Positions 55,204 through 64,000 of a DNA stretch of 64,000 bases are shown piece after piece (within the stretch, counting starts at the first letter, position 1; each line of letters begins with the position of its first letter). The stretch is from an uncultured Lachnospiraceae bacterium (lineage in GTDB: Bacteria > Bacillota > Clostridia > Lachnospirales > Lachnospiraceae). Below the pieces are notes generated by a model, which saw only the letters and a program-made list of their open reading frames with translations, did no database searches and was not told the origin of the DNA. The translations under genes and the position numbers were made by a program. The DNA is taken from assembly GCA_947629565.1 (NCBI GenBank), contig CANREG010000002.1, positions 20,524-84,523 on the forward strand, given 5' to 3'.

Positions 55204-55827
55204 ATGGAAAAAGAAGAATTGGTGGAAGCCATTGTAAAGTTAGAATGGAATGCTTTTGATAAAGTGGAGAATAAAGGAGGCAGGGCGGAGTGCCAGGATG
55301 ACTGGAATACCTTTTCTCTTATGCGGAAAAGCCAGTATTTGGCATGGCCAAAGGAACTTCTTGAGAGCTTTTACGAGGATTTTGTCGAGGCCAACCGGAA
55401 GGGCTGGAACCTGATTACAGAAAAATATGGACGCATGATGGAATCCACCGTCCCGGAGGAATACGAGGCAATCAAAGCACAGCTTCCCCCCTGTCCTTCA
55501 CAGAAACGGGCAATCGTCAATCAGATTGCGGAGATTCAGGTGCAGTGGATGGAAGATTTTGCAAAGGAATATCCTCATATGGCCATGAATGCCCGGAGTA
55601 TTCATTCCTCTGAAGATACACCCTACAACACCTCCTATGAGACCTACCTAAAGGGCGAACTGATGACCTACTCTGACCGCACCTTAAACCTTTATGGCCG
55701 GTGGATTGTCGACTTAAACCAAAAGGACGAAAACCTTGCCCGCATAATCATGACAAACACAGCGCTCCTTTACGGCTACGCCTCCTTACAGGCCGCCGAA
55801 GAAGCCCTTGGCAGCCAACCCCAATAA
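55204..55827 (+). CDS. DUF4125 family protein
   Basis: 207 aa; 'EAIVKLEWNAFDKVENKGGRAECQDDWNTFSLMRKSQYLAWP'. Confidence 0.75.
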   Translation: MEKEELVEAIVKLEWNAFDKVENKGGRAECQDDWNTFSLMRKSQYLAWPKELLESFYEDFVEANRKGWNLITEKYGRMMESTVPEEYEAIKAQLPPCPSQKRAIVNQIAEIQVQWMEDFAKEYPHMAMNARSIHSSEDTPYNTSYETYLKGELMTYSDRTLNLYGRWIVDLNQKDENLARIIMTNTALLYGYASLQAAEEALGSQPQ

Positions 55828-56350
55828 CCCTTCCTTTTTCCCATATCCTTATTGGCGTTTCCCGGCGGCTCCCTTTCTCTTATCCGCATTTTTTACAAAA
55901 CCGCCTCGGGATAATCCTTTCCCATTTTCCCGCACTGCCATCGGTTTTAAGAAATCCTGCTGCCGGGCTCTCCTGCATATTAGATTGCACGCGCTTACGA
56001 AGAACTCGCACCGGGAAGGGGTGACTGGGAAACATTTGCAGCCCCTTTGAAAACGCCGGTACTTGCGAAGGCCCTTTCTTAATCTGTTATTCAGCAGATA
56101 ATGAACAGGGCCTTCGCTTATGTACCGCTGCGTTTTCGACAGAGCGCAAGCGTGGCTGCATAATGTTTGCCCAGCACCCCAAACCCGGTGCTCAAACACT
56201 TCTTCGCGCGTGCAATATGCAGGAGAGCCCGACAGTGGATTTCTAAAAAACCGCGTGTCGGGAAAAATGGGAGAAGGATTACTCCGGGGCGGTAATTTAC
56301 TAATCATATGGCGGATAAGAAAAAGGGAGCCGCCGGGAAACGGAAAAAGT
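55826..56350. repeat. ~500-bp imperfect palindrome with ~190-bp arms and a central GC-rich hairpin
   Basis: Left arm ~55856-56042 vs reverse complement of ~56155-56341, e.g. CGTTTCCCGGCGGCTCCCTTTCTCTTATCCGC vs CGTTTCCCGGCGGCTCCCTTTTTCTTATCCGC; centre GCGAAGGCCCT...AGGGCCTTCGC. Confidence 0.93.
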
Positions 56351-56473: not shown

Positions 56474-57037
56474 ATGGCAACAATTTCAGCAGGTGATTTT
56501 AGAAATGGCGTAACCATTGAATTTGAAGGGAATATTTATCAGATTGTAGAATTTCAGCATGTTAAGCCGGGTAAAGGCGCAGCCTTTGTCCGTACTAAGT
56601 TAAAGAATATTGTGAACGGCGGCGTGGTGGAAAAGACGTTCCGTCCTACAGAGAAGTGTGAGACGGCTCACATTGACCGGAAGAATATGCAGTATCTTTA
56701 TCAGGATGGAGATTTGTACTACTTTATGGACAATGATACCTATGACCAGATTGCTTTAGGTAAGGATGTGGTTGGCGATTCCCTTAAGTTTGTTAAGGAG
56801 AATGAGAATGTGAAAGTGGTTTCCCATGCAGGCAATGTATTTGCCATTGAGCCGGAGATTACCGTTGTCTTAGAGGTAACGGAGTGCGAACCGGGCGTTA
56901 AGGGCAATACGGCAACCGGAGCAACCAAGCCATGTACTGTAGAGACCGGAGCAACCCTTAATGTACCGCTGTTTGTCAATCAGGGAGATAAGATTTCCAT
57001 TGATACAAGAACAGGGGAGTATCTTTCAAGAGCATAA
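56474..57037 (+). CDS. efp: Elongation factor P
   Basis: '[45 protein letters not shown]'; start moved to 56474. Confidence 0.95.
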
Positions 57038-63780: not shown

Positions 63781-64000
63781 CATAACCCTTCCCCTTAAAC
63801 ATATACTTAGCCGATTTTAACGGATACTTCTCTATTATCCGCAAAAATATTATTGAATTACCGCCGCAAGGTAATCCTTTTCCCGATTTTCCCGACACGC
63901 GGTTTTTTAGAAATCCGCTGCCGGGCCCTCCTGTATATTGCACGCGCGAAGAAGTGTTTGAGCGCCGGGTTTGGGGTGCTGGGCAAACATTTTGCAGCCA
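63781..64000 (+). repeat. Second copy of the palindromic-element arm, cut by window edge
   Basis: 63888-64000 matches reverse complement of 56153-56265 with ~6 mismatches in 113 nt by eye; 63781 onward resembles the left arm start (ATAACCCTTCC...TATCCGC). Confidence 0.92.

Follow-up and report, generated by a model that had tools for sequence, protein, structure and literature searches.

Imperfect palindrome between a DUF4125-type gene and efp

The element described here lies in the window, i.e. the whole stretch of 64,000 nucleotides that was analysed, between a putative DUF4125-type gene (ending at 55827; its name comes from an earlier note on this DNA) and efp, whose start codon is at 56474. 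It is about 490 bp in size, and the open reading frames listed within it are short and overlap each other on both strands. The near-continuous inverted repeat that the earlier note had recognized there proved real: in a self-comparison 55856-56342 and its reverse complement align at 72%, and the repeat is predicted to fold as single-stranded DNA at -187 kcal/mol, as against -74.9 +/- 4.8 kcal/mol for 100 dinucleotide shuffles, none of which equals it (z = -23.4). Arms and inner stem also lie where they had been placed, with 97% complementarity between the outermost blocks (55856-55887/56311-56342) and 78% between the inner blocks (55942-55981/56214-56253). The outer ends are not sharply bounded, as the pairing tapers at about 55848-55856 and 56342-56350. 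Neither a target duplication nor an intact terminal repeat could be recognized at this copy, its ends being degenerate, and the ends of the long form (about GTAACC...) fit neither of the two intact end types described below. The parts of the element, and a second copy in the window, are as follows:

55856..56042, no strand: left arm; its outer part varies among copies yet is complementary within each copy
56155..56342, no strand: right arm, partner of the left arm 55856..56042
56030..56174, plus strand: conserved core that also occurs in the short MITEs found in other genera (65.1 bits and E = 3e-17 with covariance model R1; the E-value is not fully independent, the model having been trained partly on L186, a short copy of the window's genome near the long form)
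56057..56062, plus strand: 5' strand of the invariant core helix, CGGTAC (alignment, pair counts, sequence)
56122..56127, plus strand: 3' strand of the invariant core helix, GTACCG, followed by a CT bulge and GCG (alignment, pair counts, sequence)
56065..56117, plus strand: variable apical hairpin, bigger in the long form, GCGAAGGCCCT ... AGGGCCTTCGC (self-comparison, copies, folding)
56144..56151, plus strand: GC-GCAA-GC mini-hairpin (GNRA loop), in a single arm only, marking the orientation of the core
55856..55887, plus strand: outermost well-paired block of the left arm, homologous to GGCGGATATCTTTCTATTATCCGCC in other copies
56311..56342, minus strand: outermost well-paired block of the right arm
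63835..64000, minus strand: second copy of the element, ended by the contig end and matching element positions 328-493 at 89%

The assembly breaks within the repeat at 63835-64000, as it does at several other contig ends of the same genome. The scan against Rfam proposed in the earlier note recovered no known family: its covariance models gave no match to the window element up to E = 1, and a second scan gave none up to E = 5.

Copies in the genome and in a sister species

The genome-wide self-search that had also been proposed established the element as multicopy, with 67 matching places in its own genome, including about 35 long copies, several of them at contig ends. The covariance model detects 52 core matches in this genome and 54 in that of a sister species (G021), where a search recovered a similar set of copies. 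Using the flanks of the copies, whose best matches between the two species are mostly 89-99% identical, we found that nearly all comparable copies occupy the same positions in both; hence the insertions are older than the species split, in agreement with the earlier view that this is not a fresh insertion. No copy is clearly new to either sister species, the seemingly unmatched loci being present in the other species or absent from an assembly, and the comparison of these two close species yielded no presence/absence polymorphism with a clean empty site. In other species (L047, L052-L056) the DUF4125-efp gene order recurs with a short spacer and no element, at a distance too great for a base-exact empty site. 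In a few cases the left and the right flank of a copy correspond to separate loci in the sister species (L003, L004, L005 and L007 versus L126, L127, L129, L130 and L134), and such exchanged flanks are consistent with chromosomal rearrangements by recombination between copies. One contig of the window's genome (L016, G000:C90:1-684) starts with a long near-perfect inverted repeat that runs past the element into the flank; the palindrome probably gave rise to it during assembly, as an artefact. Two short core-bearing elements of this genome, L190 (G000:C5:35682) and L188 (G000:C26), are situated immediately upstream of purF-like and cbiM-like genes.

The comparison of the two species further revealed that the arms change in concert. 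Nine sister pairs whose orientation is unchanged, with a mean divergence of about 4%, yielded 19 two-sided changes that keep the pair, while about 2.4 two-sided changes of any kind are expected under independence, and species-specific changes, including small insertions, occur in both arms (e.g. L149 versus L022). The one-sided changes in these nine pairs are divided equally between G.U (24) and A.C (24), and the same balance holds in the outermost arms of all long copies (105 each), with part of these counts coming from related copies that are not independent. Given that selection on an RNA strand should favor G.U, this equality implies that the concert of the arms operates at the level of DNA. 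Thus, the compensatory-looking indels pointed out in the earlier note do exist, but as arm-to-arm co-changes without strand bias they are not evidence for an RNA. The possibility that the outer arms were copied from host flanks at insertion was considered and dropped, since they are homologous between copies and merely diverged.

The core, moreover, is inverted relative to unchanged flanks at 8 of the 22 loci that could be scored between the sister species (6 of 15 with two flanks and 2 of 7 with one), the efp locus itself (L001/L123) being among them. Template switching between imperfect inverted repeats is documented to cause both homogenization of the arms and inversion of the spacer (PMC8604942), and hairpins are reported to be maintained by template switching (PMC8794818). 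The present loci resemble such quasipalindromic sites in showing both arm homogenization and spacer inversion between imperfect inverted repeats; they differ in that the repeats described in PMC8604942 are short, whereas here arms of about 190 bp are involved at dozens of loci.

A conserved core between two kinds of transposon ends

Three weak matches of the query in the same genome led to short hairpins with a common inner motif, GTACCGYTGCG-N(4-24)-GCGNRAGCGTG. This motif is present in 22 of 299 Lachnospiraceae genomes, with up to 52 occurrences per genome and none for a reversed control; in a sample of the phylum it was found in 2 of 399 genomes, both Lachnospiraceae. Of 120 Lachnospiraceae genera, 52 proved positive with the covariance model, which gave four positives, again all Lachnospiraceae, in a sample of 147 genomes of the class; it detected the element in no other family sampled. 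Searches of plasmid and phage collections returned no match. Three matches on viral contigs were judged to be due to chance: they look like one sequence, and the rest of the core is missing around it. A literature search, which left out most subscription papers and IS databases, found no earlier description.

An alignment of 50 sequences showed that the core comprises: 1) a P1 stem; 2) an internal loop; 3) a GCAGG/CCTGC stem; 4) a CGC-CGGTAC/GTACCG-CT-GCG helix; and 5) a variable apical hairpin; in addition, a GNRA mini-hairpin of two base pairs occurs in a single arm only. On this structure 86.9% of the cells are paired as against 73.8% in shuffles. The covariance analysis suggested in the earlier note yielded a clear excess of two-sided changes, with 177 cells altered on both sides versus 60 +/- 6 in shuffles and 34-70 in register-slid controls. 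The loops of the core are of the GNRA type almost without exception, and the change of the mini-hairpin stem from GC to GU/AC is compensatory. Sequences of the form GC-GNRA-GC are known to make very stable DNA mini-hairpins.

Elsewhere in the window's genus, young members of the family are about 210 bp long, carry TAGGYRATTGCGAAAC as their terminal repeat and are bordered by target duplications 10-13 bp in length. Of the 27 genomes of the genus, 25 contain the end pattern TAGGNNATTGCGAAACNC, at up to 119 sites and with controls near zero; many of these sites form pairs about 206 bp apart, and target duplications at such ends include TATAAGAATAACT, TTAGAGATTGTA, GACATAATAAAG, ACTTAATGCAA and GTCTTAAATT (TAGG type). 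The core is present in nearly all scanned elements with TAGGYRATTGCGAAAC-type ends, the exception (L324) being rearranged. Two further pairs of the same ends, 1.75 kb apart (L331, L332), flank a single ORF of 491 aa that contains a DUF772 transposase domain. This partner thus shares its ends with the MITEs, but it lacks the core, and its transposase is only a distant relative of the IS1182 family (a score of 77.5 with the NCBI model, below the cut-off of 270). A more distant second relative of this IS1182-like transposase (45% identity; L412, G008:C62:157-1557) is encoded in the same genome. Neither the window's genome nor G021 yielded a relative of the transposase of the 1.75-kb element, and no locus compared is clearly new to one species, so the family looks dormant in both.

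In another genus, a genome designated G101 carries dozens of core-bearing elements, mostly 250-300 bp in size, with different ends, GTTACTGTTCATGGGGTGGGGAAA, and 8-bp target duplications (TCTCGCAT, TTGCTGTC, CCCTCTTA, GCTTTCTC and GTATACTG). Ends of this type also bound a 2.3-kb element (L390) with an IS66-family transposase, whose DDE_Tnp_IS66 domain scores 64.4 against a cut-off of 23.1. The core-bearing MITEs share both their ends and their 8-bp target duplications with this IS66-family partner, whereas the 2.3-kb element and small derivatives consisting of terminal repeats lack the core. All ten full-size G101 elements examined contain the core, while small palindromes (52-177 bp) bounded by these ends are devoid of it save for one partial match. 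The latter (L391-L398) are hardly more than two IS66-type terminal repeats and are apparently mobile, so that the ends alone appear to be enough for movement. A covariance-model scan of the three autonomous elements detected the core in none of them. The statement in the earlier note that no IS ends were seen is therefore correct for the worn window copy, but not for its family; of the features that it proposed to look for, target duplications are present in the young relatives but were not recognized at the window copy, and sites lacking the element exist as the element-free DUF4125-efp spacers of other species.

Nature of the element and of its core

Taken together, these observations make it very likely that the window element is a long-established, long-form non-autonomous fold-back transposon (MITE) of Lachnospiraceae, which was inserted in trans and whose arms evolve in concert while its interior inverts in place. 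The MITE-like mobile element was among the options of the earlier note, and it is borne out by the dispersed copies, by close relatives that possess terminal repeats and target duplications alongside autonomous partners, and by the element-free state of the locus elsewhere. The insertion between the DUF4125-type gene and efp would have occurred in the common ancestor of the two sister species, presumably through a transposase that acted in trans on terminal repeats, since decayed. At the DNA hairpin, the arms would then have been homogenized and the spacer flipped by template switching or by recombination of one arm with the other, homologous recombination between them being a possible alternative route. 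The conservation of the core exceeds what such an arm-correcting process would produce, in that conserved mismatches, a mini-hairpin in one arm and an invariant helix have all been kept; hence the core is probably under selection. Most likely, its benefit is to the element, by way of hairpin extrusion, transposition or host tolerance.

The most surprising result is the presence of one conserved core between two unrelated end types. The core can have been captured twice, or a core-bearing MITE can have swapped its ends. We tentatively raise the possibility, which falls short of being probable, that the core represents a hairpin module in its own right, under selection and functioning as single-stranded DNA or RNA, which two or more unrelated transposon systems (IS1182-like and IS66) have captured and which has been kept across much of the Lachnospiraceae as a passenger improving the spread or tolerance of the MITEs.

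The strong covariation, the conserved internal loops, the near-exclusive GNRA loops and the compensatory change in the mini-hairpin stem would also suit a genome-wide family of structured non-coding RNAs, either trans-acting or cis-regulatory, for which DNA mobility is incidental, as would the inner 35 nt of the short forms, where G.U exceeds A.C (about 57 to 22, summed over copies that are not independent). We nevertheless consider such a family unlikely, given that G.U and A.C are nearly balanced in the informative helices of the aligned core (P1 10:10 and P2 5:3, 15 to 13 in sum) and exactly so in the long form's outer arms, that the core inverts in place and that Rfam holds no match. Relative to co-directional neighbor genes the element has no preferred orientation (38 versus 42), which argues against a cis-regulatory RNA. 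For the arms, the mismatch balance, the unbiased orientation and the flipping of the core speak against the large structured RNA envisaged in the earlier note, whereas the short core may still have a role as RNA. Another reading, in which a mobile terminator or insulator halts transcription from both sides with its long hairpin and thereby renders insertions harmless, accords with the very stable fold and with the intergenic position of the copies, which lie near the ends of genes (at a median distance of about 10-110 bp). It is improbable, however, as the alignments reveal no consistent T-tract at the element ends and convergent sites are not favored (9 convergent versus 22 divergent and 80 co-directional sites), many copies lying upstream of genes; with flanks whose orientation displays no preference for gene ends, the composite terminator of the earlier note also loses its footing. 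We further dropped the idea, derived from L002, that the element sits in the loops of native terminators, such a hairpin being absent from most loci and, at the efp locus, from related species. Finally, the inversion of the core at the efp locus itself between the sister species could be taken to indicate a phase-variable switch for efp or DUF4125, but we give this little credence: the same flipping takes place at many unrelated loci, no promoter has been shown inside the element, no dedicated recombinase has been identified, and the arms of a palindrome can by themselves account for inversion (PMC8604942).

In kind, then, the long-established fold-back transposon is a bacterial MITE. The family resembles those reviewed in PMC10969869 (e.g. 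Chunjie, MITEAba12 and QMITE) in being non-coding, dispersed, intergenic and hairpin-forming, in having terminal repeats and target duplications, and in sharing its ends with autonomous partners; it also falls within the usual size definition of non-coding elements under about 500-600 bp with many dispersed copies. What sets it apart is a core, about 110 nt long, that is conserved with compensatory change throughout a bacterial family and is flanked by the terminal repeats of two unrelated transposon families; the window copy, in addition, is larger and worn. This family-wide core on two transposon types is what is new. The ERIC, REP-BIME, RUP and Correia elements share with it the general features of imperfect palindromes with many intergenic copies and a conserved core, but the partners found here are of the DDE type (IS1182-like and IS66) and not RAYTs. 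MITEs are usually thought to need their ends alone; a core kept folded by two-sided change over a whole bacterial family, and lying between the ends of two transposase families, suggests that the interior is of importance too.

The pair of sister species amounts to a natural experiment on the survival of long palindromes, in which the two arms change jointly and roughly one third of the loci have a flipped interior. It also cautions that covariation in palindromic repeats is not proof of RNA function, and it leads to the prediction that assembly breaks and inversions will be met at such sites in gut Lachnospiraceae genomes. In one other genome, G317, a second repeat of several hundred bp lies 150-650 bp to the left of the core, beside a subset of the core-bearing elements (L234, L237, L243 and L244).
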